Shown here one piece after another: positions 9,202 to 59,276 of a stretch of DNA of 64,000 nucleotides. Under the pieces are notes generated by a model that had not been told where the DNA came from, made no database searches, and saw nothing but the letters and a program-made list of their open reading frames with translations. Both the position numbers and the translations under genes were made by a program. The number at the start of each line of letters is the position of its first letter. Position 1 is the first letter of the stretch. The DNA lies in contig NZ_PEEX01000001.1 in the NCBI RefSeq assembly GCF_002754245.1, positions 248,001 through 312,000 on the forward strand. The letters run 5' to 3'. Source of the DNA: Chryseobacterium sp. 52 (GTDB lineage: Bacteria > Bacteroidota > Bacteroidia > Flavobacteriales > Weeksellaceae).

Positions 9202-9434
9202 ATAGAAATCACATCACTATACTATTCAGAGTTAGATTTCAACTAATTGATATTCTTCTATTTTAAACTTATTTAGCATTTTAAAAAAAACAACCTTCAT
9301 TTTAACATTTATCATAAATTAATTCAATTATGATAGAATAATTTACTATTTTAGTTCAATCTTTTTAAATCTACTTATCTAATTATAAGAGTGTTAAAAA
9401 TAAATTAATTTCCTAAACAAAAAAAAATTAAACC

Positions 9435-9668: not shown

Positions 9669-9687
9669 TCTGATCAATAACAAAAAA

Positions 9688-9717
9688 AAATGAGCTTATC
9701 CGGCTCATTTTTTTTTG
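9688..9717 (+). terminator. terminator after the double-glycine peptide gene
   Basis: AAATGAGC / GCTCATTT with a 7-nt loop and a run of T follows the stop codon by 19 bp. Confidence 0.8.
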
Positions 9718-9936
9718 TTCAGACAGATCAGTAATCTAAAAAACTGACCGGATAAAAATCTTTGCAAAAAGCCTTTGTTAATAAAATGAAAAAATAATCA
9801 ATCTAATTTTAGATCATCCATTCTAATAATATAAAATTCGCTATATTTACGATACAATAGATTGAATTTCAGATAAAATAACACGTTTTAATTTCAATTA
9901 TTTAAAATATTATTATATTAGAGAAAAATTTATCCT

Positions 9937-11532
9937 ATGAAAAAAACATTACTTTTGAGTTTTATGGCACTCGCTACCATGGGCAGTGCGCAGATTTTAG
10001 TTACGGAAAGCTTTGAAAATGCTACCTATCCGGGATTCGTCGTAACAGGCGGTTATACAGGGACAGCCGGAACCTATATTTCCGGTGCCTGTGATGGCAC
10101 TGTAGCCATAGGGGCTGAAGCATATGGATTTAATGACGCTAACAGAACCGTCAATTTAGTCTACACAAAACCAGCAGGTCTAACTGCCAACGGAAAAAAA
10201 ATTGACATTTCTTTTACATACAGTACAAGTGCTTATGATGCAGCAAGCAGCATCGGTGGGACCATGAATGTAGGGTACTCTACAGACGGAGGTACCACCT
10301 ATACCCCAGTTGGCTCTGCAGTTACATTAACCGCTGCACCTCAAACCTGTGCTGCATTTACAGGGACAATTCCTGAAAGCGCCAATATAAACGGAAATTT
10401 CAAGTTGCGTATCCAGACTCTAGGGACAACAGGAACTACTTACGATTTCTTTAACTTTATTGATAATGTTAAAATCAAGCAGGAAGTAACAGCTACTCCT
10501 ACATGTACCACCATCAGCAGCCCTGTAAGCGGCGCAACTGCCGTTTCTGTACGTCCGCAGATGAGCTGGGCAGCTGTAGCAGGTGCAGAATCTTATAAAA
10601 TAAAAGTAGGAACGACTCCGGGAGCTTCCAACATATATACGGGAACAACATTTGGGACTTCTTTCTCACCTGCATCTACGAGCGTTTTCCCTCAAAACAC
10701 ACTTCTTTACGCTTCGGTTACGCCAACCAATGCTTTAGGTGATGCTACAGGATGTACGGAAATCTCTTTCACAACGGGTGCTAATCCATTTACTCCTTAT
10801 TGTGGAACACTTGTGTCTAAACTTGGTGTATACCCAATATCTAATGTTGTACTGAGCAATATGACCAATGCATCCAGCGCAACTGCAAATACCGGTGACG
10901 GCCAGGAAGACTTTACCAATAAAGTAGCTACGGTTACCAGAGGAACCTCTTATCCTATCAATCTTACCGGAACAGGAGTAGGAACCAACAGATTTGGATT
11001 TACAGTATTCATTGACTGGAATCAGAACGGAAGCTTTGGAGATGCAGGAGAGACTTATTTTGTAACTTCTGATTTTGCAGGAGGTACAGGTGACGTGGTT
11101 GCTGTTACCAAAAATATTGCAATACCGGCCACTGCTGCTCTGGGAAATACCAGAATGAGAATAAAATTTCAGTTCAACAGTTCAACGAACAGTGTAAGAG
11201 CGGAATTATCTAGCCCATGTACTGATCTTAGCCAGGGACAAGCAGAAGATTATACTCTTCTGGTACAGAAAAATGTATTGGGAACTTCAGATGTCAATGC
11301 TAATGGCAAAATGGACATCTCGGTTTATCCTAATCCATTTAAAGACATTGTAACTATTTCTGACATCAAAGGTGTAAAATCTATTACGGTGTCTGATGTT
11401 TCAGGCCGTCAGGTGAAAACACTTAAACCAAGTACTGAACTTAACCTTTCTGATTTAAATTCAGGGCTTTACCTTATCACTCTTCATATGGAAGATGGAA
11501 GTACAAAAACGGTAAAAGCAATTAAGAAATAA
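9937..11532 (+). CDS. T9SS-exported protein with GEVED-like domain
   Basis: 531 residues. A signal peptide (MKKTLLLSFMALATMGSAQ) is followed by an adhesin-like beta region (about 20-180), a fibronectin-III-like segment with PVSGATAVSVRPQMSWAAV (about 190-280), and a GEVED-type domain (about 285-445: FIDWNQNGSFGDAGETYF, GQAEDYTLLV). The last 75 residues are a type A Por sorting domain (VYPNPFKDIVTI, SGRQVKTL, LNSGLYLITL, KTVKAIKK), so the protein should cross the outer membrane by type IX secretion and be surface-bound or released. The ligand is unknown. A terminator follows. Confidence 0.88.
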   Translation: MKKTLLLSFMALATMGSAQILVTESFENATYPGFVVTGGYTGTAGTYISGACDGTVAIGAEAYGFNDANRTVNLVYTKPAGLTANGKKIDISFTYSTSAYDAASSIGGTMNVGYSTDGGTTYTPVGSAVTLTAAPQTCAAFTGTIPESANINGNFKLRIQTLGTTGTTYDFFNFIDNVKIKQEVTATPTCTTISSPVSGATAVSVRPQMSWAAVAGAESYKIKVGTTPGASNIYTGTTFGTSFSPASTSVFPQNTLLYASVTPTNALGDATGCTEISFTTGANPFTPYCGTLVSKLGVYPISNVVLSNMTNASSATANTGDGQEDFTNKVATVTRGTSYPINLTGTGVGTNRFGFTVFIDWNQNGSFGDAGETYFVTSDFAGGTGDVVAVTKNIAIPATAALGNTRMRIKFQFNSSTNSVRAELSSPCTDLSQGQAEDYTLLVQKNVLGTSDVNANGKMDISVYPNPFKDIVTISDIKGVKSITVSDVSGRQVKTLKPSTELNLSDLNSGLYLITLHMEDGSTKTVKAIKK

Positions 11533-11562
11533 CAAGTCTTAAAAACATTTATTGATAATGAT

Positions 11563-11594
11563 AAAGCGGCAGTACTCTACTGCCGCTTTTTATT
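11563..11594 (+). terminator. terminator after the T9SS protein gene
   Basis: AAAGCGGCAGTA / TACTGCCGCTTT is a perfect 12-bp stem with a 3-nt loop followed by T-rich sequence. Confidence 0.88.
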
Positions 11595-11645
11595 TTCTGC
11601 ATATTAAACAGGATTTTATTATATTTAAGTATAACTAAAACCATT

Positions 11646-12395
11646 ATGAAAACCATAGAAGAAGTTCTGAAAAAACTGGATGAGATTATCATCTGGTGTA
11701 AAGAAAACCAAAGCCCGGCAGGATATTTTGCCTGTACCTACCGCATTATGACCGCACAGGTTCTGAAAGGAATTCAACAGAAAAAATTTGAAGATAATCC
11801 CAGAATGATCCTTCTTGATATTGCTTTTGCCCAGAGATATCTGGAAGCCTGGGAAAACTACAGTAAAGGAAAAAAGTGCAGCCTTTCATGGTACACAGCT
11901 TTTGAGGCTACAAAAAACAAAAATCTTCTCATCTTACAGCATATTTTCCTGGGAATGAATGCTCACATTAATCTGGATCTGGGAGTTTCTGCCGCTGCCA
12001 TTATGCCGTACCGAAAAATCAATCCCCTTAAAAAGGATTTTGAGAATATCAATACGGTCATCGCTTCCATCAACCAGAAGGTTCAGGACTCTTTGAACAA
12101 AATCTGTTATCCTGTAGATCTGATCGACAAAATATCCAACGGAAAAGATAATGCTGTTCTGGATTTTGCAATTTCTAAAGCACGGGAAACTTCATGGGCC
12201 ACAGCAGTCATTGCTTCCAATACGCCCAATTTCTTAAGAGAATCCGTCATCAGTATTGTAGATTATGCTGCAGCTAAAGTAGCCTCACAAATATTGAATC
12301 CCAAAATTCTCACACCCGCATTGACGAAAGAATTGAAAAAATATGAGAGTACCGATATTGTAAAAAATATTGAAATCTTAGAGTCAACAAAATAA
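11646..12395 (+). CDS. DUF5995 family protein
   Basis: 249 residues, predicted soluble and helical with no signal peptide. The segments YFACTYRIMTAQVLKGI, RYLEAWENY and LILQHIFLGMNAHINLDLGVSAA match the DUF5995 family as I know it. The conserved His and Asp in HINLDLG suggest a metal site, but no activity is established. It lies between a terminator and the rmuC promoter, so it is probably monocistronic. Confidence 0.82.
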   Translation: MKTIEEVLKKLDEIIIWCKENQSPAGYFACTYRIMTAQVLKGIQQKKFEDNPRMILLDIAFAQRYLEAWENYSKGKKCSLSWYTAFEATKNKNLLILQHIFLGMNAHINLDLGVSAAAIMPYRKINPLKKDFENINTVIASINQKVQDSLNKICYPVDLIDKISNGKDNAVLDFAISKARETSWATAVIASNTPNFLRESVISIVDYAAAKVASQILNPKILTPALTKELKKYESTDIVKNIEILESTK

Positions 12396-12464
12396 AAATT
12401 AATCTATTAGAAAAAGATGAAAATTATTGAGGCTTCCCGTAAAAGAAATCAATTTTTCTTTTTG

Positions 12465-12472
12465 TAATTTTG
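12465..12472 (+). promoter_or_regulatory. -7 element 4 nt before the rmuC start
   Basis: TAATTTTG ends four bases before ATG 12477. With the transcription start normally a few bases past this box, the mRNA would begin at or next to the start codon. A -33 TTG at the usual distance is not evident. Confidence 0.5.
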
Positions 12473-12476
12473 AAAA

Positions 12477-14024
12477 ATGGAGATGACATATTTAATTATT
12501 GGATTTATTGCCGGTGGAGCTCTGGGAGCTGTGATTTTATATTTTGCTTTAAAATCATCAACCGTCTCAAGACGTTCTTATGACGAACTGAATAATCTGC
12601 ATATCAAGAATCATTCGGATCTGGAAAATCTTAATCTGAAAGTTCAGGAGCTAACCCAAAATATCAGCAGAGAAAAGGAACAACATCAGCAACAGACTGA
12701 TTTGTTGAATGATCTGAAAAATGAATATGCAAAAATTTCTGCAGAACACACTTCCCTGAATTCTCAATTTTTGGAGCTAAAGCAACTTAACACCAAACAA
12801 ACTTCTCAGATCGAAAATCTATTAACTGAGAAGCAAAATATTTTTGCGAAAAATTCTGAGCTTTCTGCCATTAATGACAGTTTAAAGAAATCTATTGAAA
12901 CTCAGAAAGAGGAAGTTATTAAAATTCAGGAGGAAGGTAAATTACAGTTTGAAAATTTAGCTAATAAAATCCTGGAAGAAAAAACAGAGAAATTTACAGA
13001 ACAGAATCAGCTTAATCTTAAAAATATACTAAGCCCTCTTCAGGAAAAAATCAACAATTTTGAAAAAAAGGTAGAAGATACCCACAAAGAAAGTATTGAT
13101 TATCATGCTGCTCTCCGACAGCAAATCATTGGATTGAAAGATTTAAATATCCAAATGAGCAAAGAAACTTTGAACTTAACTAAAGCACTGAAAGGTGACA
13201 GTAAAATTCAGGGGAACTGGGGCGAGCTTGTATTGGAAAGAGTACTGGAAAAATCCGGTCTGGAAAAAGGCAGGGAATATGAAGTTCAGAAAAGCCATGT
13301 AACCACCGAAGGAAACAGAGTTCTACCAGATGTTATTGTCAATCTTCCTGACGGGAAGAAAATGATCATCGACTCAAAAGTATCTCTGGTAGCATATGAG
13401 CGTTATGTGAACGAAGAAAGAGACGAAGAGAGACCGTTGTTTTTAAGAGAACACGTGTTGTCCCTAAAGAGACATATCGAACAGCTTAGCAACAAAAACT
13501 ACCATAGTCTTTATGAAATGGAAAGCCCGGACTTTGTTTTGCTTTTCATTCCGATAGAACCCGCTTTTGCCATTGCGCTTAATGAAGATAGCTTACTTTA
13601 TAACAAAGCTTTTGAAAAAAATATCGTTATTGTTACGCCTTCCACTCTTTTAGCGACTCTCAGAACGATTGACAGTATGTGGACCAACCAGAAGCAGCAG
13701 GAAAATGCCATAGAAATTGCCCGCCAGGCCGGTGCGTTATATGATAAGTTTGATGGTTTTGTTACTAATCTGTTAAAGGTGGGTAAAAAAATGGAGGAAG
13801 CTAAAACGGAATACCAGGGAGCTATGAATAAACTGATCGAAGGAAGAGGAAATCTGGTAATCAGCGCTCAAAAATTAAAGACAATGGGAGCTAAAGCAAC
13901 AAAATCACTTCCTGAAAACTTAATTACAAGGGCTAAATCTAATGAAGAAAATACAGATCTGCTGGAAGAAAACACGCCACAGAATCTTATCGATAACAGC
14001 AGCTTTTTAGAAACAGAAAACTAA
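12477..14024 (+). CDS. rmuC: DNA recombination protein RmuC
   Basis: 515 residues. One N-terminal membrane helix (about 4-25) is followed by a long coiled coil (about 30-190) and the RmuC endonuclease-like domain, with GNWGELVLERVLEKSGL near 246, LPDVIVNLPDGKKMIIDSK near 286-301 and VTPSTLLATLRTI near 386. The family limits recombination at inverted repeats and is related to PD-(D/E)xK nucleases; the Asp and Lys of that motif are present. A second in-frame ATG lies at 12483. The next gene starts 4 bp after the stop. Confidence 0.93.
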   Translation: MEMTYLIIGFIAGGALGAVILYFALKSSTVSRRSYDELNNLHIKNHSDLENLNLKVQELTQNISREKEQHQQQTDLLNDLKNEYAKISAEHTSLNSQFLELKQLNTKQTSQIENLLTEKQNIFAKNSELSAINDSLKKSIETQKEEVIKIQEEGKLQFENLANKILEEKTEKFTEQNQLNLKNILSPLQEKINNFEKKVEDTHKESIDYHAALRQQIIGLKDLNIQMSKETLNLTKALKGDSKIQGNWGELVLERVLEKSGLEKGREYEVQKSHVTTEGNRVLPDVIVNLPDGKKMIIDSKVSLVAYERYVNEERDEERPLFLREHVLSLKRHIEQLSNKNYHSLYEMESPDFVLLFIPIEPAFAIALNEDSLLYNKAFEKNIVIVTPSTLLATLRTIDSMWTNQKQQENAIEIARQAGALYDKFDGFVTNLLKVGKKMEEAKTEYQGAMNKLIEGRGNLVISAQKLKTMGAKATKSLPENLITRAKSNEENTDLLEENTPQNLIDNSSFLETEN

Positions 14025-45842: not shown

Positions 45843-46211
45843 TTAAAAAACCGGTGGTTTGAAAATATGTTTCAGAAACAGAAAAGAATAGGCTGTTTCA
45901 TAGAGAAAATTGAAGTTTAGAGAAAGAAAATTCTCTGTTTTCTGAATAGCCGCAATTTCAGGAAGAGTACAGATGTCTATAATTTTCTGCCCTGAGTTTT
46001 TGGTCTTGTTTAAAGGAGAAGAGTCGGTATTATTTGTTTTGGCAAGTTCTTTACTCAGGTAACATTTTCCGTTACAGTGAAGCTCAGGTTTGCTTTTATT
46101 GATACACAGAACTGTGGAAATATAATGATAATTTACAGCATACTCCATCAATGGTATCAGAGGTCTGAACACCATATAAAGAGTAAGGAATATGCTGCAA
46201 ATTAAGTTCAT
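45843..46211 (-). CDS. small membrane-anchored Cys protein (paralogue of 48141-48503)
   Basis: 122 residues from ATG 46211, 3 bp after the superoxide dismutase stop. An N-terminal hydrophobic segment ends RPLIPLMEYAVNYHYI, then LCINKSKPELHCNGKCYLSKELAKTN with three Cys (C-x10-C-x3-C), a variable polar middle, and the end HIFKPPVF. The gene at 48141 shares the N-terminus, the C-x-G-K-C-Y-x-S-K-E-L-A-K block and the IFxPPxx end. No named family is recognised. Cys content and neighbours suggest metal handling. It is probably co-transcribed with the dismutase. Confidence 0.68.
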   Translation of the reverse strand: MNLICSIFLTLYMVFRPLIPLMEYAVNYHYISTVLCINKSKPELHCNGKCYLSKELAKTNNTDSSPLNKTKNSGQKIIDICTLPEIAAIQKTENFLSLNFNFLYETAYSFLFLKHIFKPPVF

Positions 46212-46214
46212 CAA

Positions 46215-48140: not shown

Positions 48141-48503
48141 TCAGGCTAACGGAGGATGGAATATTCTGGAAAAATATTCTGAAGTATGAAAGGTAAGATA
48201 ATCTGAATGCAGAGTCTTGGCTTCCACATCAGATTCTTTTTTATTTAAGAATACAAGTGTATCGTGAGAAAGAAAAACATCCAGAACTGATATTTTTATA
48301 ACCTGAGAATTATTAGACTGTCTTTCTGTTTTGGCAAGTTCTTTACTAACGTAGCATTTCCCTTTACACGTAGACTGGGGTACATTTCTGTTCTCACAAA
48401 GATTTTTTACAATATAATCATAGTTCACCGCATAGTTTACCAATGGCAAAATGGGACGTAATGCAATGGTAAAAATGATAAATATGGAAATAAAAAATCT
48501 CAA
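48141..48503 (-). CDS. small membrane-anchored Cys protein (paralogue of 45843-46211)
   Basis: 120 residues from a TTG at 48503. This start was chosen because it aligns exactly with the ATG of the paralogue (both give 20 residues before the conserved block) and because a -7 box TATATTTG lies just upstream at 48528-48521; an in-frame TTG at 48536 would lie within that promoter. The protein has ALRPILPLVNYAVNYDYI, NLCENRNVPQSTCKGKCYVSKELAKTE (split: three Cys, C-x10-C-x3-C) and the end RIFHPPLA. The function is unknown. Confidence 0.62.
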   Translation of the reverse strand: MRFFISIFIIFTIALRPILPLVNYAVNYDYIVKNLCENRNVPQSTCKGKCYVSKELAKTERQSNNSQVIKISVLDVFLSHDTLVFLNKKESDVEAKTLHSDYLTFHTSEYFSRIFHPPLA

Positions 48504-48520
48504 TGATCTGTTCTGTGTTA

Positions 48521-48528
48521 CAAATATA
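48521..48528 (-). promoter_or_regulatory. -7 element for the small Cys protein gene
   Basis: TATATTTG on the minus strand, 17 bp before the TTG codon at 48503. It supports that start over the upstream one. Confidence 0.5.
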
Positions 48529-48645
48529 CTACTCAAATTCAGTTTATGGCTTATTTATGATGAATGTCATTATTATTTTTAGATTAGAGAAAATAAACTG
48601 CCATAGGGATTGTGATGGTGGGCTATTATTTTTTGCAATAAAAAA

Positions 48646-48808: not shown

Positions 48809-50773
48809 CTAATTAAATTTCATTCTTTGAATTCTTACTGCATTTAAGATGGCTAATAACGCGACTCCTACATCAGCGAATACGGCTTCCCACATGGTGG
48901 CCAAACCTCCGGCTCCAAGAACCAGAACCACAGCTTTTACCGCAAAAGCTAAAATAATATTCTGCCATACGATTTTCTTGGTCTGCTTTCCTATATTGAT
49001 GGCCATTGGAATCTTGCTTGGCTTATCATCCTGAATAACGACATCTGCAGTTTCAATCGTGGCATCGCTACCCAGTCCGCCCATCGCAATTCCTACATCA
49101 CTGAGAGCGACTACCGGAGCATCATTCACCCCATCCCCCACAAAGGCTACGGTCTGGTTTTTGGCTTTGATTTCTTTTACTTTATTGACTTTGTCTTCCG
49201 GCAATAAATCTCCAAATGCACTGTCTATGCCAAGCTGATCTGCCACATATTTTACCACGGTGCTTTTATCTCCGCTCAGCATGGTTGCTTTCACTCCCAT
49301 TCGGTGCAGATTGTCCACCGTTTCTTTAGCATCACTTTTTATACTGTCTGCAATGGTGATATAGCCCGCAAACTTGTTATCATACGCTATAGCAATAAGG
49401 GTATATACAATATTGGCGTGGTTGATGTCATAGCTGATATTAAACTTATCCATCAGTTTAAAATTACCCACCAGAAGCTCTTTTCCATTGACGGAAGCTT
49501 TTAAACCATGTCCTGCAATTTCTTCTACATTTTCCAATGGAATAGAATGATCGATCTGGCCTGCATAATTGTGGATTGCCGTGGCTACAGGGTGTGTACT
49601 TTTGCTTTCCAGTACATTGACGAGCTTCAGGATTTCTTCTTTATTGAATTCAGATTTGATGCTTACTTCCTGTACTTTGAATACCCCTTCTGTCATGGTT
49701 CCGGTTTTATCCATGACCACATTCTGTATTTCTGCGATACTGTCTAAGAAATTACTTCCTTTGAATAAGATCCCATTTCGGCTTGCCGCTCCAATTCCTC
49801 CGAAATATCCTAACGGAATGGAGATCACCAGGGCACACGGACATGAAATCACCAGGAATATCAATGCTCTGTACAGCCAGTCTCTGAACTGATAGTCACT
49901 GACGAAAAAATACGGGAGAAGACAAATTCCTATGGCAAGAAAAACAACGATTGGCGTATATACTTTTGCGAATTTCCTGATGAATAATTCAGTCGGGGCT
50001 TTCTGCGCGGTAGCATTCTGTACCATTTCCAGTATTTTGCTCAGTTTACTGTCTTCGTAAGCGGTATTGACCTTTACGAGAGCAATGCTGTTCATATTAA
50101 TCATCCCTGCCAATACCACTTCACCTTTTGTTTTAGTGTCAGGTTTACTTTCTCCCGTCAGTGCTGCTGTGTTGAATGAAGCTGATTCTGTAATCAGTTC
50201 ACCATCAAGAGCTAGTTTTTCACCGGGTTTTAGCTGGATGATATCTCCTATTTTTGCTTCTTTTGCTTTTATTGTTTTAGGCTGGCTTCCTTCCATGATT
50301 GTTACCTCATCGGGCCGTTGGTCAAGTAGAGCTTTGATATTTCCTTTCGCTCTTGAAACAGCCATTCCCTGAAATACTTCACCTACCGAATAGAAAAGCA
50401 TTACGGCAACACCTTCCGGATACTGCCCGATTACAAAGGCTCCTACGGTGGCTATTCCCATCAGGAAAAACTCAGAAAACACATCTCCTTTAATGATACT
50501 TTCATACGCTTCCTTTAAAACCGGAAGGCCTACGGGAATATAGGCGGCCAGATACCATACTAAACGTACCCAACCTGTAAACCATTCTGTTTTTATATAA
50601 TTATCTAATGCTATTCCTATCAATAAAAGCACAAGAGATACAATGGCAGGAAGGAACATCTGGAAAGCTGTTTTATCTCCTGTATCATGAGAGTGGTCGT
50701 GTCCGTCTCCTTCTGAATGATCATGTTTATGCTGTTCTTTTTGTTTTGGTTTTGTACTGCAACATTCTTCCAT
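48809..50773 (-). CDS. heavy-metal translocating P-type ATPase (Zn/Cd/Co type)
   Basis: 654 residues. The N-terminus has a Cys pair (MEECCST) and a His-rich tail (HKHDHS, HDHSHD, about 15-29) instead of a ferredoxin-like metal domain. The core has TGES (206-209), the CPC metal motif (311-313 in SCPCALVISIPLGYFGG), DKTGT (355-359, phosphorylated Asp) and GDGVNDAPVV. It exports soft divalent ions from the cytoplasm to the periplasm. It lies directly behind the Fur-family gene and a palindromic operator, and belongs to the same metal region as the RND pump. Confidence 0.92.
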   Translation of the reverse strand: MEECCSTKPKQKEQHKHDHSEGDGHDHSHDTGDKTAFQMFLPAIVSLVLLLIGIALDNYIKTEWFTGWVRLVWYLAAYIPVGLPVLKEAYESIIKGDVFSEFFLMGIATVGAFVIGQYPEGVAVMLFYSVGEVFQGMAVSRAKGNIKALLDQRPDEVTIMEGSQPKTIKAKEAKIGDIIQLKPGEKLALDGELITESASFNTAALTGESKPDTKTKGEVVLAGMINMNSIALVKVNTAYEDSKLSKILEMVQNATAQKAPTELFIRKFAKVYTPIVVFLAIGICLLPYFFVSDYQFRDWLYRALIFLVISCPCALVISIPLGYFGGIGAASRNGILFKGSNFLDSIAEIQNVVMDKTGTMTEGVFKVQEVSIKSEFNKEEILKLVNVLESKSTHPVATAIHNYAGQIDHSIPLENVEEIAGHGLKASVNGKELLVGNFKLMDKFNISYDINHANIVYTLIAIAYDNKFAGYITIADSIKSDAKETVDNLHRMGVKATMLSGDKSTVVKYVADQLGIDSAFGDLLPEDKVNKVKEIKAKNQTVAFVGDGVNDAPVVALSDVGIAMGGLGSDATIETADVVIQDDKPSKIPMAINIGKQTKKIVWQNIILAFAVKAVVLVLGAGGLATMWEAVFADVGVALLAILNAVRIQRMKFN

Positions 50774-50789
50774 AACTAATATTTTTATG

Positions 50790-50825
50790 TAAAATTAGGG
50801 TTAAACTCAATGCAATACTATTGCA
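50790..50825 (-). promoter_or_regulatory. candidate Fur-family operator and promoter for the P-type ATPase
   Basis: On the minus strand, TGCAAT-AGT-ATTGCA (50825-50811) is followed after 13 nt by TAATTTTA (50797-50790), one base off TAnnTTTG. The palindrome overlaps the stop codon of the Fur-family gene. The same palindrome with the same 13-nt spacing occurs before the RND pump gene. Confidence 0.65.
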
Positions 50826-51237
50826 AACTTTCCAGACAGTTTTCACAGATTCCTTTAGCAAAAAGCCTTATTTCATCAATCCTGAAATTGGTCTGTACAT
50901 TTTCCGGAAAGGAGATATCTTCTCTGCATGTGGTCTGCTTGCATATTTTGCAGTAAAAATGAAGGTGCCAGTCTTTATGGGTCTTTTCATCACAACCATC
51001 ATCACATAATTTATATTTTGTGGTTGTATTTTCCTGTATGCTGTGAACAATTCCTTTTTCCTCAAAGGTTTTTAAGGTTCGGTAAATCGTAGTTCTGTCT
51101 GCATTATCAAAGTAACTTTCAACTTCTGAAAGTGATAACGCAGCTTCCTGTGTGCTTAAAAAATCATATACCAAAATCCTCATACTGGTAGGCTTGGTAT
51201 TTTTATCGATGAGTTTATTTTCTATATCTTTTTTCAT
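50818..51237 (-). CDS. Fur family metal-responsive transcriptional regulator
   Basis: 139 residues. An N-terminal winged helix (about 15-75) has LSLSEVESYFDNADRTTIYRTLKTFEEKG (landmarks DRTTIYRTL and FEEKGIV). The C-terminal dimerisation domain carries HLHF (91-94), CKIC (96-99) and CENC (131-134), the structural zinc cysteines, plus C78/C82. Fur relatives sense Fe, Zn, Mn, Ni or peroxide; place among efflux genes suggests control by Zn or a similar ion. Palindromes flank it on both sides of the operon. It lies 15 bp after the CDF gene and 44 bp before the ATPase gene. Confidence 0.9.
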   Translation of the reverse strand: MKKDIENKLIDKNTKPTSMRILVYDFLSTQEAALSLSEVESYFDNADRTTIYRTLKTFEEKGIVHSIQENTTTKYKLCDDGCDEKTHKDWHLHFYCKICKQTTCREDISFPENVQTNFRIDEIRLFAKGICENCLESLQ

Positions 51238-51252
51238 TCGTAAGGTTCATTT

Positions 51253-52149
51253 TTAAAGGTGTACTTCCTGTTCTTCATAGCCTTCCTCTTCTATCTGAAA
51301 GGTGGTATGACTGATTTTAAAGTTTCCGGTTGTTACTTCGGTTAATGTTTTCAGCAAAGGATTCTGAGCGGTTTCACGATCTCTGACAATGTGTGCACTC
51401 ATGGCATTGACGCTTGAAGTAAGTGACCAGACATGAAGGTCATGAACGTTTTTCACTCCCTGAACTTCTTCCAATGATTTGCGCAGCTGATGAATATCTA
51501 CATCTTTGGGAGTTCCTTCCAGCAATACATTGACAGCTTCTTTCAGTAAACGCCATGTTCTTGGAAAAATCAACAGGCCGATAGCTGCAGAAATAATTGG
51601 ATCCGCATAATACCAACCTGTTGTCAGAATAATAACCCCGGCGATCATCACGCCAATAGAGGTAAGCATATCTGAAAGAACTTCAAAGTAAGCCCCTTTC
51701 ATATTCAGGCTTCCTTCCGAATCTTTTCTCAGGATCATCATCCCAATAATATTAACGACAAGTCCTATTCCTGCTACAATAAGCATTATTTTACTCTGAA
51801 CTTCCGGAGGATTCTGAAACCGCTGATAAGCTTCATACAAAACGTAAAGAGAAATCCCGAGCAATACCACAGCATTAATGACTGCAGCTAATATTTCGGT
51901 CCGGTAATACCCGAATGTTTTAGAAACATCTGCCTTTCTTTCTCCTATTTTGATGGCGATAAATGCCAAGAGCAATCCTACAACATCAGTGAGCATATGG
52001 GCTGCATCTGCCATCAGCGCTAAGCTTTGGGTAAAGACACCACCAATCACCTCAGCAATCATATAGGTTCCACTTAAGAACAGGACAAAAAGGAGATTCT
52101 TTTTGTGTCTGCTTGCCGGTGAACCTGTTTGTATTTTTGTTTCTTCCAT
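51253..52149 (-). CDS. cation diffusion facilitator (CzcD/ZitB-like)
   Basis: 298 residues with six membrane helices and a cytoplasmic C-terminal domain (about 205-298). The transport-site motif HxxxD appears in ADAAHMLTDVVGL (TM2) and its TM5 counterpart has Asp in YFEVLSDMLTSIGVM. CDF proteins export Zn, Co or Cd in exchange for protons. The C-terminal part has GVKNVHDLHVWSLTS, a usual metal-sensing segment. It lies between the bestrophin gene (20 bp) and the Fur-family gene (15 bp). Confidence 0.93.
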   Translation of the reverse strand: MEETKIQTGSPASRHKKNLLFVLFLSGTYMIAEVIGGVFTQSLALMADAAHMLTDVVGLLLAFIAIKIGERKADVSKTFGYYRTEILAAVINAVVLLGISLYVLYEAYQRFQNPPEVQSKIMLIVAGIGLVVNIIGMMILRKDSEGSLNMKGAYFEVLSDMLTSIGVMIAGVIILTTGWYYADPIISAAIGLLIFPRTWRLLKEAVNVLLEGTPKDVDIHQLRKSLEEVQGVKNVHDLHVWSLTSSVNAMSAHIVRDRETAQNPLLKTLTEVTTGNFKISHTTFQIEEEGYEEQEVHL

Positions 52150-52169
52150 GTTTTTGAAATTTTAGCGGA

Positions 52170-53051
52170 TCACATTTCGTAATACAAAGAATTCTCTTTT
52201 TTCGCAGGGACATTCTGATCTCCTGTCATCTGTTTTATATTCATTTCTATAGTCTGTGCCAATGATGTCACAGGTGTATCAACAGGGCCGTTTTCAAATG
52301 GATCCTGCATGATAATTGATGTTTTTTCTATGGCAAGAAACATGACCGGAATCAGAAAGGTAATGATGATTTCAACAGCCAGCTGACCATCATCCAATCC
52401 AAAAGGAAGTATGGCCGCGAAAACATAAATCATGGTATGAAGCAGAATACTGTAAGATCTTGGAAAAACAGTATTCTTGAGTCTTTCACATTTCCCCATA
52501 CTGTCGCAAAGTCTGGTGATTATATCATTCAGCTGCATTTGCTGAAAATCTGTTAATCCTTTTGAAGAAGCTGTTTCTTTAAGCTGCTGAGAATGGGCAT
52601 CTAAAAGAGCATTGGGAATATTTACTGCTTTAATCTGATGTTCATCCAGGTATTTCTGAACTCTATCGGAAAAAGGCTGTCTTCTGAGAGATTCGCCAAG
52701 CGCATAGGTCCAGATCATCTGCCTTTCTGCAAACTCTTTAATGATCTTGTCTTCTCCTGCAGGAAAGAACTGTATGATCAACCTCATCAGTGTCCTTGAA
52801 TCATTAACTATTGCTCCCCAGACGGTTCTCGCTTCCCACCATCTTTCGTAAGACTGGGAAGTACGGAAAGCCAGCAGTAGTGAAACTGCTGTTCCCAGCA
52901 GCGCCGGGATATTCAGAGGGAGAGAGATTCTGCGGAATCCCGGAAGGAGATCTAACAGCCCTATAGACAAGGCAAATATTCCCATATACACTATCTGAGC
53001 TTTTATTTCACGGATGAAATACCAGATGGATATTTTCTTGTTTAACAACAT
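52170..53051 (-). CDS. bestrophin family channel protein
   Basis: 293 residues matching the bacterial bestrophin (RFP-TM) family: four membrane helices, the IWYFIREIKAQIVYMGIF start, LGTAVSLLLAFRTSQSYERWWEARTVWGAIVNDSRTL (landmarks FRTSQSYERWWEAR and GAIVNDSR) and the ENGPVDTPVTSLAQTIE segment. Bacterial bestrophins form pentameric channels, reported as cation-selective in Klebsiella. The gene lies inside the metal-efflux operon, 20 bp before the CDF gene and 128 bp after the adaptor gene; whether it serves metal or charge balance is not known. Confidence 0.9.
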   Translation of the reverse strand: MLLNKKISIWYFIREIKAQIVYMGIFALSIGLLDLLPGFRRISLPLNIPALLGTAVSLLLAFRTSQSYERWWEARTVWGAIVNDSRTLMRLIIQFFPAGEDKIIKEFAERQMIWTYALGESLRRQPFSDRVQKYLDEHQIKAVNIPNALLDAHSQQLKETASSKGLTDFQQMQLNDIITRLCDSMGKCERLKNTVFPRSYSILLHTMIYVFAAILPFGLDDGQLAVEIIITFLIPVMFLAIEKTSIIMQDPFENGPVDTPVTSLAQTIEMNIKQMTGDQNVPAKKENSLYYEM

Positions 53052-53179
53052 AACTGAATGATATTAGGATGTTTCTTGTATGTGTGACCTTGAAAATTTA
53101 CCGTAAGCACCTCTAATTTAGGGATAAAAATCGGGACTTTTTCCAGTCTGTTCTTATAAATCAATGAGCATTTTGTGAT

Positions 53180-54451
53180 TTAATGCTCATGCCCTCCGGA
53201 ATTGGAAAGTTTTGCATTAACAAAAAAGGCTCCTTTCACGACTATTCTGGCATCAGCAGGGATTGCGCTCACAGGTGTGATCGCTGTATACCCCATATCT
53301 GAAGTACCTTTCACAACTTCTACCTTTTCAAAATTGACCATTTTTTCCTGATGTTTAGGACTTTCTCCGGCGGCGGCTTTATTTTTTTCACCATCTCCTG
53401 AAGCTTCTTCTTCATGTTCCTCCGCTTTTTTATCTGTCCGGATGAAAACATAATACTTTCCGTCTGCTTCTACGATCGCTTCTGTAGGAACAGCAGGTGT
53501 TGTATTTTTATCGAGGCTTACAATTCCGGTAATATTCATTCCGTCGATCAGGCCAGCTTTATTTCCTGTTACGGTACCGTGCACTGAAACGGTTTTGCTT
53601 TCGTTCTCAAAAGAAGAACCTACGCTGTACACCATTGCATCGTACTCAGTTTCAGGATTATTGGTCAGCTTGAAATGAACGATCTGCCCGATTTTCATCC
53701 TGGGAAGGTCTTTTTCAAAAACCTGAAGGTCAAGATGGATAGAATTGTTATCAATGATCTCTGCTACAGGTGACGAAACATCTACATAACTTCCGATCTG
53801 TGCTGAAATACTGCTCACCGTTCCGCTGATTGGTGCTGTAATGACCAGTCCGGATCTCATATTGCTATTGTTTACTTTTCCAGGGCTTATTCCCATCATC
53901 TGAAGCTGTCTTAAAAGCGAAGCTCTGCGGGTTCTTAATGTTTTCAGCTCTGCATCTGCGCTCTGAAGATTCTTCTTTGCGCCGGCATCATTGTCAAAAA
54001 GTTCTCTCTGTCTTCTGTATTCCTGCTCGGCATAAGTAATTCTGCTGTTCGCATTCAGATATTCTTCCTGGAGCTGTATAAATTCAGGATTGGCAATGGT
54101 TGCAATCACCTGCCCTTTCTTCACGAGGCTTCCTACCTGTACGTTCAGCGTTTTGATGACTCCGCCGTACAGAGAAGTGACTGTTGCTTTATTGTTGTTC
54201 GGCACACGAAGAAGCCCGTTTGCTTTAATCGTAGATGTCAGTTCTTTCATTTCCACAGTGCCCAAAGAAATCCCTACTGATTTCATTTGTTCTTCGGTTA
54301 AAGAAGCAATAGTCTGTGGCCCTTCCTCATGACCGGCTTCGGCTTTTTCAGTTTTCACTTCGGGCTTTTCTGCCGGTGTTTCTTTTTTTCCGCAGCTTAT
54401 AATTAAAAGGGCCGTGACTGTCAGAAATATGATATTGTGCTTTATTTTCAT
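53180..54451 (-). CDS. RND efflux periplasmic adaptor subunit (CzcB-like)
   Basis: 423 residues. Lipobox LIISCGKK (Cys 20). A membrane-fusion protein with beta-barrel and lipoyl domains: VTSLYGGVIKTLNVQVGSLVKKGQVIATI (landmarks GGVIKTLNVQ and GSLVKKGQVI), a helical hairpin (about 130-190) and SGLVITAPISGTVSSI. A His/Glu-rich region (KKAEEHEEEASGDGEKN, about 342-358) and the C-terminal GGHEH may bind metal. It links the inner-membrane pump with the outer-membrane channel. It begins 1 bp after the pump gene stop. Confidence 0.92.
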   Translation of the reverse strand: MKIKHNIIFLTVTALLIISCGKKETPAEKPEVKTEKAEAGHEEGPQTIASLTEEQMKSVGISLGTVEMKELTSTIKANGLLRVPNNNKATVTSLYGGVIKTLNVQVGSLVKKGQVIATIANPEFIQLQEEYLNANSRITYAEQEYRRQRELFDNDAGAKKNLQSADAELKTLRTRRASLLRQLQMMGISPGKVNNSNMRSGLVITAPISGTVSSISAQIGSYVDVSSPVAEIIDNNSIHLDLQVFEKDLPRMKIGQIVHFKLTNNPETEYDAMVYSVGSSFENESKTVSVHGTVTGNKAGLIDGMNITGIVSLDKNTTPAVPTEAIVEADGKYYVFIRTDKKAEEHEEEASGDGEKNKAAAGESPKHQEKMVNFEKVEVVKGTSDMGYTAITPVSAIPADARIVVKGAFFVNAKLSNSGGHEH

Positions 54452-54452
54452 G

Positions 54453-57400
54453 TTATTTATTGATGATTGAATTAATAGTAACTACAGATTGATTGACCTG
54501 CTGAATAGATTCTAAATATTTTAACTGAATATTGGTAGCGGTCTGCAATGCAAAAAGATATTCTACATAGGATATTTCTCCCGTTTTGTAGCCTAGCTGA
54601 GCTGCTTTTACAATTTTTTCAGCGTTAGGAATAGCCTGACTCACATAATAATCATATTGCTGTATATCCTGCTGATATTGTCCGAAAGCATTTTCCAGTT
54701 GTGCTGAAAGTTGTTTTTGCTGCATTTTCGCATTGGTTTCAGCGGCTTGTTTTTCATATTCCAGAGATTGCATTCTTGCTTTTGTAGCCCCGAATGTCAA
54801 AGGAATAGCAACGCCTACGGAGAAAGAATTGAAGCGGTCTCCGGTATTATAAAATTTCTCCTGTCCGTTTTTGGTATGGAAACCAATCAAAGACTGACTT
54901 GTCAGCCCAAGACTGAATTCAGGAAGTCCCTGAGATTTTTCTACATTTTTATTCTTCTCGGCAATCTCCATTTCATTATAAAAAGCTTTAACGGTTGGAT
55001 TATTGGCTACAGATGTACTGTCTAGAATATTTTCTGTTCTTAAAGGTTCATAATCACTTTTAAAAGGAACTTCAAAATTCTCAGAAGTATTCAGTAATGT
55101 CTTTAAATTTTTATAGGCATTGTTTAAATAGACTTCGTTCTGTTTCAACAGCAGATTAATTTCCCCTTTCTGGGTTTCTGCCGTGTTAATTTCAATCTTT
55201 TTGATATCTCCCGCTTTAAATCTTACGGTAGCAATCCTGATAAAATCCTGGTAAAGGCTGTCAAGATCTTTCAGTTTGAATTTATTATACTGAAGATATT
55301 CAATCTGATAATAATAAGTACGGACCTGCTTTGTGAGCTCGTTGGCAGAAACGTCCTTATTAATTTGCCTGCCCTTAACATTTTCGGTGATCAACTCTCT
55401 CCTTGCTTTGAAGAGCGTAGGAAAAGGAATGCTTTGTGAAATGGAAAACGACTGGTCAAATTTTGGACTGTTGTATTGTCCCAGCTGAGCTGTAAAGTTT
55501 AGCTTAGGAAGTTCTTTCGACGTTCCTTTCAATGCTTCTGCTGATTGTATGCTGAGATTTTTTGATTTTAAAATCAAACTATTATCCGCTGCCATTTCTA
55601 CGGCCTGTTCCACAGAAATCTGACGGGTCTGAGCTTTAAAATTCTGTCCAAACATCAGAAATCCTAAGACAATCACCGTAGTCACTGGCTTAATTTTATT
55701 CATCTTTCCTGAGATTTTTGAATTAAAAATAATATACAGCATGGGCAGAACAAACAAAGTAAGGAATGTAGCCGTTACCAGTCCTCCGATTACCACGGTT
55801 GCCAAAGGTTTCTGTACTTCAGCTCCGGCTCCGGTAGAAATTGCCATCGGCAGAAATCCTAATGAAGCGACTGTTGCCGTCATCAGAACGGGTCTCAATC
55901 TGGTTTTTGTCCCTTCATATACTCTTTTCAACACATCTGTTTCACCCTCTTTTTCCAGTTGGTTAAAAGTTCCGATCAAAACGATTCCATTAAGAACGGC
56001 AACTCCAAAAAGGGCAATAAATCCGATTCCGGCACTGATACTGAAAGGCATATCTCTTACAAGAAGGGCAAATACACCTCCTATCGCACTCATCGGAATG
56101 GCTGTAAAGATCAGACCGGCCTGTTTAAATGAGCGAAATGTGAAATACAGTAACATAAAAATCAAAAACAGGGAAACCGGCACCGCAATCATCAGGCGTT
56201 TGCTGGCTTCCTGTAGATTTTCAAACTGTCCGCCATACGTAAAGTAATACCCTGAAGGCAGTTTTACCTGCTTATCCAGTTTTGCCTGAATATCTTTCAC
56301 AACACTCTGTACATCACGGTCTTTTACATTAAAACCAATCACGATTCTTCTTTTACCTTCTTCACGACTGATCTGTGCGGGTCCTAATTTATAGCTGACA
56401 TTCGCAACCTGAGAAAGCGGAATCTGCGTTCCCGTAGCTGTTGAGATCATTAAATTATTAACATCATCGATATTTGTTCTGTGAAGGCTGTCAAGACGGA
56501 CGACAAGATCAAAACGTCTTTCATTTTCAAAAACCTGGCCTGCCGCTTTTCCTGCAAAGGCTGTACTTACGACGTTATTCACATCTTCTATGTTTAAACC
56601 ATAGTTGGCCATTCTCGTTCTGTCGTATTCTACATTGATCTGGGGAAGTCCGCTTATTCTTTCAATCTGAGGAGGTGTTGCTCCGTCTACGGTCTGGATG
56701 ATATTCCCGATTTTATCCGCATAAATGGATAACGAATCCAGATTCTCTCCAAAAATCTTCACGGCAACATCCTGTCTGATCCCTGTCATCAGTTCATTGA
56801 AACGCATCTGAATCGGCTGGTTCTTTTCAAAAAACACCCCTGGAATTGTTTCCAGTTTTTCACTGATTTCATCTGCCAGTTCTGTATAGGATTTTTTTGA
56901 TTTCCATTCTGTCTGTGGTTTTAATACCACAATCAAGTCGGTTGCTTCAGGGGGCATCGGATCTGTAGGAACTTCAGCAGAACCTGTTTTTCCCACAACC
57001 ATTTTCACCTCGTCAAACTGTTTAATAATTCTGGAAGCCTGCATAGAGGTTTCTATACTCTGGCTCAGTGAACTTCCCTGTGGCAGAATACAGTGGAATG
57101 CGTAGTCTCCTTCCTGCAGCTGCGGAATGAATTCACCGCCCATATTTTTAAAAATAAAAGCGCTAATGACAAAAATAAAAATGGTTGCTGAAACAATGAT
57201 ATATTTTAGCTTAACCGCTTTCTGAAGCATCGGCTGATAGATACCCTGCAGAAAATCCATCATTTTGTCACTGATTGTTTTTTTATTGGTTATCTTTTTT
57301 GAAAGGAACAGGGCACTTGCTGCCGGAATATAAGTTATAGAGAGAATTGTTGCTCCTATAATGGCAAATCCCACTGTCTTGGCCATCGGTGTAAACATTT

Positions 57401-58817
57401 TCCCTTCTACTCCTACCAGCGTAAGGATAGGCACATACACGATCAGGATAATAATCTGTCCGAATATGGCACTGTTCATCATTTTGGATGCGGCAGTTCC
57501 CACTTCCTGATCCATCTGAACCTGAGTGAGTCTGTTTTTATAATTTTTGTTGTGTTGCAGTACATGTAGCGTCGCTTCTACAATGATCACGGCACCATCG
57601 ACAATCAATCCGAAATCTATGGCTCCAAGGCTCATTAAATTGGCACTTACTCCAAAAACATTCATCATTCCCAAAGCAAACAGAAGCGACAGCGGAATAG
57701 CCGAAGCTACAATAAGTCCTGCTCTAAGGTTTCCAAGGAAAACGACCAAAACGAAAATAACAATAAGAGCTCCTTCTATCAGGTTTTTCTCTACAGTATT
57801 GATTGCTCTTCCTACAAGATCTGTCCTGTCTAAGAAGGGTTCTATCACCACATCATCGGGAAGGGATTTCTGAATGTTTGGAATTTTTGCTTTAATACTG
57901 CTGACAACGTCGTTACTGTTGGCACCTTTCAGCATCATTACAACACCTCCTACAGCATCTACTTTTCCGTTATAAGTCAATGCTCCGTAACGAACAGCAC
58001 TTCCGAAACGGACGTCTGCAACGTCTTTTATAAATATAGGAACGCTTCCTGTTTCATTTTTTACGGAGATATTTTTAATGTCATCTAACGAAGTAACGAA
58101 GCCAATTCCACGGATAAAATAAGCATTCGGCTTTTTGTCTATATACGCTCCTCCGGTATTCTGGTTATTTTTTTCTAGCGCTGTAAAAATATCGGAAATG
58201 CTTACGCCCATTGCTTTCAGGCGATCAGGACTGACACCGACTTCATATTGTTTCAATTCTCCTCCGAAACTGTTGATTTCTGCTACTCCCGGAGTTCCGT
58301 TCAGCTGTCTGCGGACAATCCAGTCCTGCATGGTACGCAGCTCTTTGGCAGAATATTTTTTCTCACTTCCCTTTTTAGGATGAAGGATATACTGATACAC
58401 TTCGCCCAAACCTGTACTAACAGGTGCCAGTTCCGGGGTTCCCACTCCTTTGGGGATTTCTTCTACAGCCTGCTTCAACTGTTCATTGATCAGCTGTCTG
58501 GCAAAATAGACATCTACATTTTCTTTGAATACCACTGTGATCACGGAAAGTCCGAATCTGGAAATACTTCTGGTTTCCTGGATATCCGGCACATTGGCAA
58601 TACTCTGTTCTATGGGAAAGGTAACAAGCTGTTCTACTTCCTGCCCTGCCAATGTGGGGCACGCGGTAATGATCTGCACCTGATTATTGGTAATATCAGG
58701 AACAGCATCTATGGGAAGTTTTGTAGCACTCCATACTCCCCAGATAATCAGAAGTAAGGTCATAATACCTACGACCACCTTATTTTTGATACTGAATTTT
58801 ATGATTTTATCTAACAC
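54453..58817 (-). CDS. CzcA-like heavy-metal RND pump fused to a TolC/CzcC-like outer-membrane protein
   Basis: 1454 residues from a GTG at 58817 (M-L-D-K-I-I-K-F). Residues 1 to about 1030 are a full heavy-metal RND pump with twelve membrane helices and the conserved block DGAVIIVEATLHVLQHN. From Met 1039 a second part begins with a signal-peptide-like stretch (VTTVIVLGFLMFGQ, then NFKAQTRQ) and continues as a TolC-type outer-membrane factor (ISVEQAVEMAADN, two long helical repeats, TGEISYVEYLFALQTA). The fusion is found in other Bacteroidota. Proton-driven export of Zn, Cd, Co, Cu or Ag is possible; the operon points to the divalent group. Confidence 0.93.
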   Translation of the reverse strand: MLDKIIKFSIKNKVVVGIMTLLLIIWGVWSATKLPIDAVPDITNNQVQIITACPTLAGQEVEQLVTFPIEQSIANVPDIQETRSISRFGLSVITVVFKENVDVYFARQLINEQLKQAVEEIPKGVGTPELAPVSTGLGEVYQYILHPKKGSEKKYSAKELRTMQDWIVRRQLNGTPGVAEINSFGGELKQYEVGVSPDRLKAMGVSISDIFTALEKNNQNTGGAYIDKKPNAYFIRGIGFVTSLDDIKNISVKNETGSVPIFIKDVADVRFGSAVRYGALTYNGKVDAVGGVVMMLKGANSNDVVSSIKAKIPNIQKSLPDDVVIEPFLDRTDLVGRAINTVEKNLIEGALIVIFVLVVFLGNLRAGLIVASAIPLSLLFALGMMNVFGVSANLMSLGAIDFGLIVDGAVIIVEATLHVLQHNKNYKNRLTQVQMDQEVGTAASKMMNSAIFGQIIILIVYVPILTLVGVEGKMFTPMAKTVGFAIIGATILSITYIPAASALFLSKKITNKKTISDKMMDFLQGIYQPMLQKAVKLKYIIVSATIFIFVISAFIFKNMGGEFIPQLQEGDYAFHCILPQGSSLSQSIETSMQASRIIKQFDEVKMVVGKTGSAEVPTDPMPPEATDLIVVLKPQTEWKSKKSYTELADEISEKLETIPGVFFEKNQPIQMRFNELMTGIRQDVAVKIFGENLDSLSIYADKIGNIIQTVDGATPPQIERISGLPQINVEYDRTRMANYGLNIEDVNNVVSTAFAGKAAGQVFENERRFDLVVRLDSLHRTNIDDVNNLMISTATGTQIPLSQVANVSYKLGPAQISREEGKRRIVIGFNVKDRDVQSVVKDIQAKLDKQVKLPSGYYFTYGGQFENLQEASKRLMIAVPVSLFLIFMLLYFTFRSFKQAGLIFTAIPMSAIGGVFALLVRDMPFSISAGIGFIALFGVAVLNGIVLIGTFNQLEKEGETDVLKRVYEGTKTRLRPVLMTATVASLGFLPMAISTGAGAEVQKPLATVVIGGLVTATFLTLFVLPMLYIIFNSKISGKMNKIKPVTTVIVLGFLMFGQNFKAQTRQISVEQAVEMAADNSLILKSKNLSIQSAEALKGTSKELPKLNFTAQLGQYNSPKFDQSFSISQSIPFPTLFKARRELITENVKGRQINKDVSANELTKQVRTYYYQIEYLQYNKFKLKDLDSLYQDFIRIATVRFKAGDIKKIEINTAETQKGEINLLLKQNEVYLNNAYKNLKTLLNTSENFEVPFKSDYEPLRTENILDSTSVANNPTVKAFYNEMEIAEKNKNVEKSQGLPEFSLGLTSQSLIGFHTKNGQEKFYNTGDRFNSFSVGVAIPLTFGATKARMQSLEYEKQAAETNAKMQQKQLSAQLENAFGQYQQDIQQYDYYVSQAIPNAEKIVKAAQLGYKTGEISYVEYLFALQTATNIQLKYLESIQQVNQSVVTINSIINK

Positions 58818-58871
58818 GATCTGTATTTAATTTTTTATGGGTAATAACTGCATACGGCGATAATGCCGTTG

Positions 58872-58907
58872 CAAAAATATCACGAAGATCTCTGCAATAA
58901 AATTGCA
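58872..58907 (-). promoter_or_regulatory. candidate Fur-family operator and promoter for the RND pump operon
   Basis: On the minus strand TGCAAT-TTT-ATTGCA (58907-58893) is followed after 13 nt by TATTTTTG (58879-58872), a perfect -7 box. The palindrome takes the place of the -33 region. It matches the element before the P-type ATPase in both halves and in spacing. Confidence 0.7.
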
Positions 58908-58952
58908 AAGTTCAATAGATAGAAAGCCTAACTTTCTAACAATCAATAAAAA

Positions 58953-59276
58953 TTAAATTTTAGGAGGCTGCCAGATATGGTCATACATCTGGTAAGCGAA
59001 ATTGTTTTTCTGAAAAAGAATTTTCTTTGAAAAATATGCCTGAACATGGCTTGGAATCTCTAATAAAGGATCCATTTTGAAAGCTGACACTGTAATCTGA
59101 CAACAACCGCAAGCACAGAGTGGTGAACAGATATCTCCCAGGTCTTTTGAATGGGATTCCTGAAGATTGAAGGACAGTCTAGTCTCTGAAGCCCCTGAAG
59201 GACGGTGCACATCTTCGCATGGCATCAGTGATAATGCCATAAAATAGAATGCAAGTATCCATCTTAACAGGTTCAT
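58953..59276 (-). CDS. small Cys-rich lipoprotein-like protein (DUF6660-like)
   Basis: 107 residues. A hydrophobic N-terminus ends ALSLMPCED (Cys 20, lipobox-like). The mature part has a Cys cluster in DICSPLCACGCCQIT (five Cys) and ends NFAYQMYDHIWQPPKI. I relate it to DUF6660, small exported proteins next to CzcA genes in Bacteroidota. Like the two small proteins at 45843 and 48141, it ends with PP plus two residues. It is the head of the metal-efflux cluster and has its own -7 box. A metal-binding role is likely but untested. Confidence 0.75.
   Translation of the reverse strand: MNLLRWILAFYFMALSLMPCEDVHRPSGASETRLSFNLQESHSKDLGDICSPLCACGCCQITVSAFKMDPLLEIPSHVQAYFSKKILFQKNNFAYQMYDHIWQPPKI

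Follow-up and report, generated by a model that had tools for sequence, protein, structure and literature searches.

The exporter locus and its two inverted repeats

We analyzed a 64,000-nucleotide stretch of the Chryseobacterium sp. 52 genome (hereafter the window), whose minus strand carries predicted metal-exporter genes, a gene for a Fur-family regulator and two copies of the inverted repeat TGCAAT-N3-ATTGCA. In the order of that strand, the locus comprises a gene for a small, Cys-rich, exported-looking DUF6660 protein (58953..59276; PF20365); the first repeat, operator 2 (58893..58907); czcA-OMP, which fuses a CzcA/CusA-type RND pump to a TolC-like outer membrane protein (54453..58817; TIGR00914, ACR_tran, OEP); czcB, for a CzcB-like periplasmic adaptor (53180..54451; profile matches); a bestrophin-like gene (52170..53051; PF25539); a CDF cation efflux transporter gene (51253..52149; PF01545, TIGR01297); fur, which encodes the 139-residue regulator (50818..51237; Pfam FUR above cut-off, alignments and fold); the second repeat, operator 1 (50811..50825); and the gene for a P1B-type ATPase matching the cadmium subfamily model (48809..50773; TIGR01512, 481 bits against a cut-off of 313.5). 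The gene order and mostly short gaps suggest that the genes from czcA-OMP to fur form an operon. The regulator gene sits in the unit starting at operator 2, immediately before operator 1.

An earlier note, made from the sequence of this stretch, had reported two perfect 6-bp inverted repeats with 3-nucleotide centers, and both were located exactly where it had placed them. Operator 2, which reads TGCAATTTTATTGCA on the minus strand, precedes the czc operon; in operator 1 the symmetry amounts to a perfect 7-1-7 dyad (TGCAATA-G-TATTGCA), a box geometry that is frequent in the Fur family. The note had also described a -7 box 13 nucleotides downstream of each dyad, and this is true for both on the minus strand: TAATTTTA (50790..50797) at the ATPase promoter and TATTTTTG (58872..58879) at the czc promoter. 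The former deviates from TAnnTTTG at its final base, and in 30 loci compared the -7 box of the ATPase promoter is frequently TAAATTTG or TACATTTG. As the -7 box begins 21 nucleotides downstream of the dyad center in both copies, the dyad does cover the -33 region, as had been proposed. The description of one copy as embedded in the 3' end of the Fur-family gene can be refined: eight of the 15 nucleotides of operator 1, which is kept in relatives, lie within the gene, while the dyad straddles the stop codon, whose TAG belongs to it, and the rest lies outside.

A repeated inverted repeat is by itself unremarkable, since the window contains 30 perfect 6-N3-6 repeats, compared to a mean of 25.4 in 300 dinucleotide shuffles, and some repeated arm was present in 132 of these shuffles. 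However, shuffled windows contained TGCAATN3ATTGCA only 0.007 times each on average, and in none of the 300 did the copies of a repeated arm stand equally far from a -7 box. A scan of the window at three mismatches returned 40 matches, which is below the shuffle level, and therefore only perfect copies were counted. A search of the entire genome (5,298,815 bases), as the note had suggested, found exactly two perfect copies, both in the window and both 13 nucleotides before a -7 box; the reversed-pattern control gave none. Of eleven one-mismatch dyads examined elsewhere in the same genome (L006-L016), ten lie in or beside genes without a visible link to metals, and the eleventh (L012) is a TGCAAC-type tandem about 14 kb from the Zur-like paralogue described below.

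Conservation of the dyad and its spacing

Homologues of the Fur-family protein were found in 129 of the 197 genomes of the family at an E value of 1e-3, and in 119 at 1e-20. We selected 60 homologue loci to span the range of identity and searched each, from 12 nucleotides before to 700 nucleotides after the fur stop codon, for a dyad with at most one mismatch. The dyad was present in 54 of them, and dyad and spacing were kept beside homologues down to about 40% identity; six scrambled control dyads matched in one of 360 windows. A TAnnTTT[GA] box followed the dyad in 50 of the 54 loci, always at a distance of 13 (40 loci) or 12 (10 loci) nucleotides, the box nearest 13 nucleotides being chosen where there were several, while no such box was found downstream of the dyad at L091, L094, L105 and L107. 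Among loci whose dyad runs into the end of fur, 32 of 34 terminate this gene with TAG, as opposed to 3 of the 26 others; although many of these rows are close kin, such a preference is the expectation if the DNA signal itself is under selection.

The same geometry was evident among 80 named relatives, the closest of which are Chryseobacterium and which include Sphingobacterium, Parapedobacter, Salegentibacter, Avrilella and Flavobacterium. A site at 12 or 13 nucleotides is present on the fur strand in 74 of them, and all 118 pairs of a dyad and a -7 box that lie 9-20 nucleotides apart are spaced by 13 (103 pairs) or 12 (15 pairs). In Avrilella and Salegentibacter, a CDF gene follows the site in place of the ATPase gene, so that the target appears to have been swapped and the element retained.

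Conversely, we searched with a DNA pattern alone (TGCAAYN3RTTGCA, 5-25 nucleotides, TAnnTTTG), using no protein information. This blind pattern was present in 114 of the 197 family genomes (reversed-pattern control: 1) and in 88 of 346 genomes of the order, family members included (control: 2). The reversed pattern is a weak control for the dyad (85 against 339 at two mismatches), and we relied instead on the shuffles, the control dyads and gene association. Among the 150 family sites listed, which come from 86 genomes, the spacing is 13 nucleotides in 93, 12 in 24, 16-19 in 26 and another value in 7, and 83 of these 86 genomes have a site at 12 or 13. When 60 blind loci, 30 from the family scan and 30 from the order scan, were sorted by their first downstream gene, 32 of the 34 with a spacing of 12 or 13 nucleotides preceded homologues of the window ATPase, of CzcA/DUF6660 or of CDF, compared to none of the 26 with other spacings. 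Within the latter group, no downstream gene was found at L143 and L161, and L155 precedes a gene that is TolC-like by inspection and for which BLAST gave no match. L184-L190, L192 and L193, which lie outside the family, likewise carry this operon together with a Fur gene of their own. In a phylum-wide blind scan restricted to spacings of 12-13 nucleotides, 23 sites were found in 17 of 296 genomes, and the control gave none; genomes of other classes, 223 in all, had no match. Of these sites, 17 of the 18 new loci adjoin exporter or Fur homologues, and the other five sites already belonged to the exporter class.

Element and regulator also occur together. With the element counted at any spacing of 5-25 nucleotides and the gene at E 1e-20, 108 of the 197 family genomes have both, 11 only the gene, 6 only the element and 72 neither (Fisher p 3e-34, not corrected for kinship). 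In three of the six genomes with the element only (G183, G015, G017, G070, G069 and G118), namely the first three, the element stands at other spacings and looks like a chance occurrence. We then considered 9 of the 78 genomes without a strong Fur homologue (G070 and G118 were left out). Seven of these nine encode homologues of the ATPase, ten copies in total, some of which sit directly after czcB, and none of the ten copies is preceded by the dyad (at most one mismatch, 420 nucleotides upstream). G183 has a two-mismatch near-copy at -48 upstream of its ATPase gene, which looks like a decayed operator.

Because of this co-occurrence, the conserved dyad and spacing, the blind recovery of the operon and the absence of the site where the regulator is lacking, the comparative data support the earlier note's proposal of a dyad to which the linked Fur-family protein binds and which joins both exporter units. 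It is very probable that TGCAAT-N3-ATTGCA serves as the operator of the protein encoded between the CDF and ATPase genes, and that the two exporter units form one metal-export regulon. The copy at 58893 would control czcA-OMP, czcB, bestrophin, CDF and fur, i.e., the regulator's own unit, and the copy at 50811 would control the ATPase gene.

Several observations weigh against this interpretation. Six of the 60 protein-fetched loci lack a dyad near fur (L100, L103, L104, L106, L108 and L120), although in L100, L108 and L120 it stands more distantly, before the ATPase gene, and 11 family genomes have the gene without an exact element. Outside the family, only 11 of the 50 sites listed are spaced by 12 or 13 nucleotides, while 22 are spaced by 15-19 and 17 by other distances. 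Some 12/13-nucleotide sites have other neighbors: L124 and L131 precede a TetR gene, L305 lies beside an ATPase gene that is of the copper type by inspection, and L198, at 13 nucleotides, precedes a transglutaminase-like gene, with no exporter homologue found in 18 kb. In the genome of L124, the TetR gene is followed by TolC-, HlyD- and ABC-like genes (L195), and a similar transglutaminase-like gene stands between fur and the ATPase gene at L320; the TetR-TolC-HlyD-ABC operon, seen in one genus, and the transglutaminase-like genes are possible extra targets. Finally, G070 has a 13-nucleotide site before DUF6660-czcA with no Fur gene adjoining (L194).

At this last locus, the operator is intact and mobilization-type genes, as read from the open reading frames, occupy the place of the Fur gene (9263-12895). 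Relatives of the Fur-family gene were also found on 13 plasmid records, twelve of which name the product only 'transcriptional repressor' and one 'Fur family transcriptional regulator'. Given these two observations, the exporter module may be mobile.

Further features of the locus concern its other genes. The CzcA-type pump and the TolC-like outer membrane protein form a single reading frame of 1454 residues (54453-58817). The DUF6660 gene lies upstream of the operator in Chryseobacterium, and in many relatives outside the genus it is the first gene of the RND operon, downstream of the operator; its product is a possible periplasmic metal binder. Near the metal genes, two small proteins (48141-48536 and 45843-46214) look related, sharing a C-x-GKCY-x-SKELAKT motif, and a Pfam scan of the former gave no family match.

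The Fur-family protein, its Zur-like paralogue and a second class of dyads

The window protein scores 30.3 bits with PF01475 (curated cut-off 23.1) and has the winged helix and dimerization domain fold of the family. Its conserved residues are H65, C78, C82, H91, H93, C96, C99, C104, C131 and C134. Two CxxC pairs (C96, C99, C131 and C134), the predicted ligands of a structural Zn(Cys)4 site, are present in all 61 rows of the alignment and invariant in 27 rows. H65 and C78, likewise present in 61 of 61 rows, the latter nearly invariant in a wider set, align with the E. coli Zur sensor ligands H77 and C88; the other two sensor ligands have no certain match. From this alignment and from the pump families, we infer that zinc or cadmium is the signal.

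The protein is distinct from E. coli-type Zur (PDB 4mtd): its gene is linked to exporters instead of importers, its putative sensor region is richer in cysteine (C78, C82 and C104), and it scores 32.6 bits with the NCBIfam Zur model NF008646, well below the cut-off of 167. The NCBIfam PerR and Fur models gave 22.6-31.2 bits against cut-offs of 180-220. In PerR and Fur, the N-terminal domain supplies a His ligand (H33/H37). In the window protein the first His is at residue 65, so that such a ligand is absent, and with the PerR models also far below their cut-offs, PerR-type peroxide control was set aside; these tests are compatible with redox sensing through the conserved cysteines.

PF01475 finds three Fur-family genes in this genome. 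One of them encodes an unlinked Zur-like paralogue (L005, G000:C1:3653995-3657288; G000:C1:3655495) whose likely ligands are the same as those of the window protein. In the tree, this paralogue groups with 11 relatives and is separated from the remaining 72 rows (support 100/98, midpoint root without an outgroup).

In addition to the exporter class of dyads, which is mostly TGCAAT, we identified a second class, mostly TGCAAC-N3-RTTGCA and mostly 16-19 nucleotides from the -7 box. In genomes of the same genus and of other families, dyads at 15-19 nucleotides precede genes for a CobW-family GTPase (L134, L135 and L165), MerC (L150 and L166) and an oxidoreductase (L139), the downstream genes of L134, L150 and L139 having Pfam support; at L164, a dyad spaced by 10 nucleotides precedes a relative of the Zur-like gene itself. 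As CobW/COG0523 genes are among the Zur targets listed in a review (PMC6103462), part of this second class may be assigned to the Zur-like paralogue, and the CobW, MerC and oxidoreductase sites, some of them double, are probably part of a zinc-uptake regulon. The class is mixed, however, with several sites standing before lipoprotein-like genes or genes of unknown kind, which counts against the mode of control proposed below.

Tandem TGCAAC-type boxes were also observed before an ABC transporter gene at L012 (G000:C1:3639672-3642686, site 1501) and L143 (site 134). The encoded transporter has a peptidase C39 domain (Pfam for L143) and could be a zinc-controlled peptide exporter.

Mode of control, alternatives and significance

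The explanation as a whole, centered on the operator role set out above, appears highly likely, while its mode of action has about an even chance. In this mode, the metal-loaded dimer would occupy the -33 position of promoters that rarely hold a normally spaced -33 TTG, and would activate the exporter promoters at high metal. The Zur-like paralogue would probably use nearly the same half-site, which here coincides with a proper -33 TTG at 16-19 nucleotides from the -7 box, and repress cobW-type and MerC genes from that position. Classical repression by metal-loaded Fur at the exporters was rejected on logic only, as it would close the pumps in excess metal.

Among 278 non-redundant cases of promoter-like -7 boxes, TTG occurs 19 and 20 nucleotides upstream in 16 and 17, respectively, compared to a mean of 6.7 at 26 other distances tested, the highest of which is 13, at 33 nucleotides. 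In the second class, the TTG of the right half-site falls near 19-20 nucleotides from the -7 box, while in the exporter class it falls at 14-15, and TTG at 17-23 nucleotides was found in only 2 of 50 and 2 of 34 exporter sites. Three points weaken this evidence: these genomes have only a weak -33 TTG, found at 19 nucleotides in about 6% of boxes and at 20 nucleotides in about as many; its placement in either class follows from the position of the dyad and adds nothing independent; and a repressor bound over the -33 position would yield the same pattern. The real finding concerning TTG is that there are two spacings. Of 17 non-redundant second-class sites, 10 have the -7 element covered by a second box (at most two mismatches), which is a repressor layout; none of 67 exporter sites has one there. 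Exporter sites that lack the TAG signature were treated as non-coding, and the 39 non-redundant ones show an AACTT consensus on the upstream side only, as at 58908..58912 on the minus strand, upstream of operator 2; TT stands directly upstream in 32 of the 39, compared to 2 with the mirror-image AA directly downstream. The fixed distance, the rarity of a spaced -33 TTG and the one-sided flank point to a protein that cooperates with RNA polymerase beyond mere blocking, although they are only suggestive of this. That the metal-loaded form activates the exporters has, in our estimation, about an even chance of being correct.

The same regulator and operator could also work in the reverse mode, in which metal-free or partly loaded protein on the -33 region represses and excess zinc or cadmium releases it, derepressing the pumps. 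We regard this as a real possibility, if short of an even chance. A dyad centered on the -33 region would obstruct RNA polymerase; the good conservation of the -7 box suggests that the promoter can function alone; and there is a precedent in C. glutamicum Zur, which represses two efflux genes at low zinc with its sensor sites unfilled (PMC6103462). According to the same review, however, Zur proteins normally bind and repress in the zinc-loaded state (PMC6103462), and the likely ligands are common to the window protein and the Zur-like paralogue. Furthermore, a spacing of 12-13 nucleotides maintained across unrelated spacers, together with a one-sided flank, would be unnecessary for blocking. 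We favor activation over derepression.

Alternatively, the unlinked Zur-like paralogue, or both proteins, might read the exporter dyads, with zinc-loaded Zur repressing uptake and activating export as in Streptomyces, where Zur is described as activating an exporter (PMC5472717, PMC11077047). The half-sites of the two classes are nearly identical, the likely ligands are common to both proteins, and in G070 the exporter site is retained without a linked Fur gene. Yet the same-genus genomes G130, G154, G194 and G183, which lack the linked gene, have no 12/13-nucleotide site, three of them still keeping a weaker Fur-family relative, and the two proteins fall into separate clades whose targets are separated by spacing; reading by the paralogue is accordingly improbable. 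A chance origin of the dyad pair is already refuted, and coincidence or an unrelated factor is scarcely credible as an explanation: inverted repeats of this kind, even with a repeated arm, are common in the window and its shuffles, but an equal -7 spacing in no shuffle and the conservation across the class speak against both.

Building on the activation reading, we can propose, tentatively and as a rather unlikely scheme, that two Fur-family paralogues share zinc control in Bacteroidota through nearly the same operator, with promoter geometry setting the sign. At 16-19 nucleotides, over a working -33, the bound protein would repress; 3-7 bp closer, a shift of up to about half a helical turn, it would replace the -33, and the metal-loaded protein would activate. 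It might do so, like MerR proteins, through distortion of a spacer that is too long (AACTTTG at 25-26 nucleotides). The MerR-family regulator ZntR binds a metal-responsive dyad at a fixed place in the non-standard promoter of the zinc ATPase gene zntA, between its two elements. The likeness to the window system lies in a metal-responsive dyad at a fixed promoter place; the protein families are unrelated, and the window dyad covers the -33 instead.

Known Fur-family systems offer partial parallels. In Streptomyces and Xanthomonas, Zur acts as the activator of a CDF exporter (PMC6103462), and zinc export in S. coelicolor and X. campestris is switched on by a Fur-family protein at high zinc, a likeness to the window system that holds only if the activation mode is true. 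In those species, one Zur does both jobs, using either a box that lies upstream of -35 or a GC-rich site of 59 bp (PMC6103462), while the window system has a regulator of a separate clade and a single dyad at a fixed distance over the -33. At zra and zrf, C. glutamicum Zur likewise places a P-type ATPase and a CDF under a Fur-family protein through a site on the -35; however, it binds a 10-1-10 direct repeat with empty sensor sites (PMC6103462), unlike the 7-1-7 inverted repeat of the window. Further, P. aeruginosa Zur activates czcR (PMC9827704), and in Riemerella anatipestifer, also of the Weeksellaceae, a MerR-type ZntR affects zinc tolerance (PMC11960050). The window system differs from all of these.

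The term 'Fur family' is absent from the text of the latter paper (PMC11960050), 'Bacteroidet' and 'Flavobacter' do not occur in the text of the Zur review (PMC6103462), and none of the open-licence papers listed in literature searches was recognizable as a description of this regulator or operator; the sensing of excess zinc or cadmium and the induction of pumps in Bacteroidota thus seem little described. What is new, and well supported by the genome comparisons, is a clade of Fur-family proteins associated with metal export, whose putative operator and promoter geometry are shared by several orders within a single class; also new are the Zur-like paralogue and the second, mixed class of near-identical dyads. 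The regulon, the operator and a near-fixed promoter geometry are now recognizable at the sequence level in several orders, and the paralogue pair makes it possible to ask whether Fur-family proteins are capable of activation from the -33 position and whether moving a repressor site by a few base-pairs can make it an activator site.

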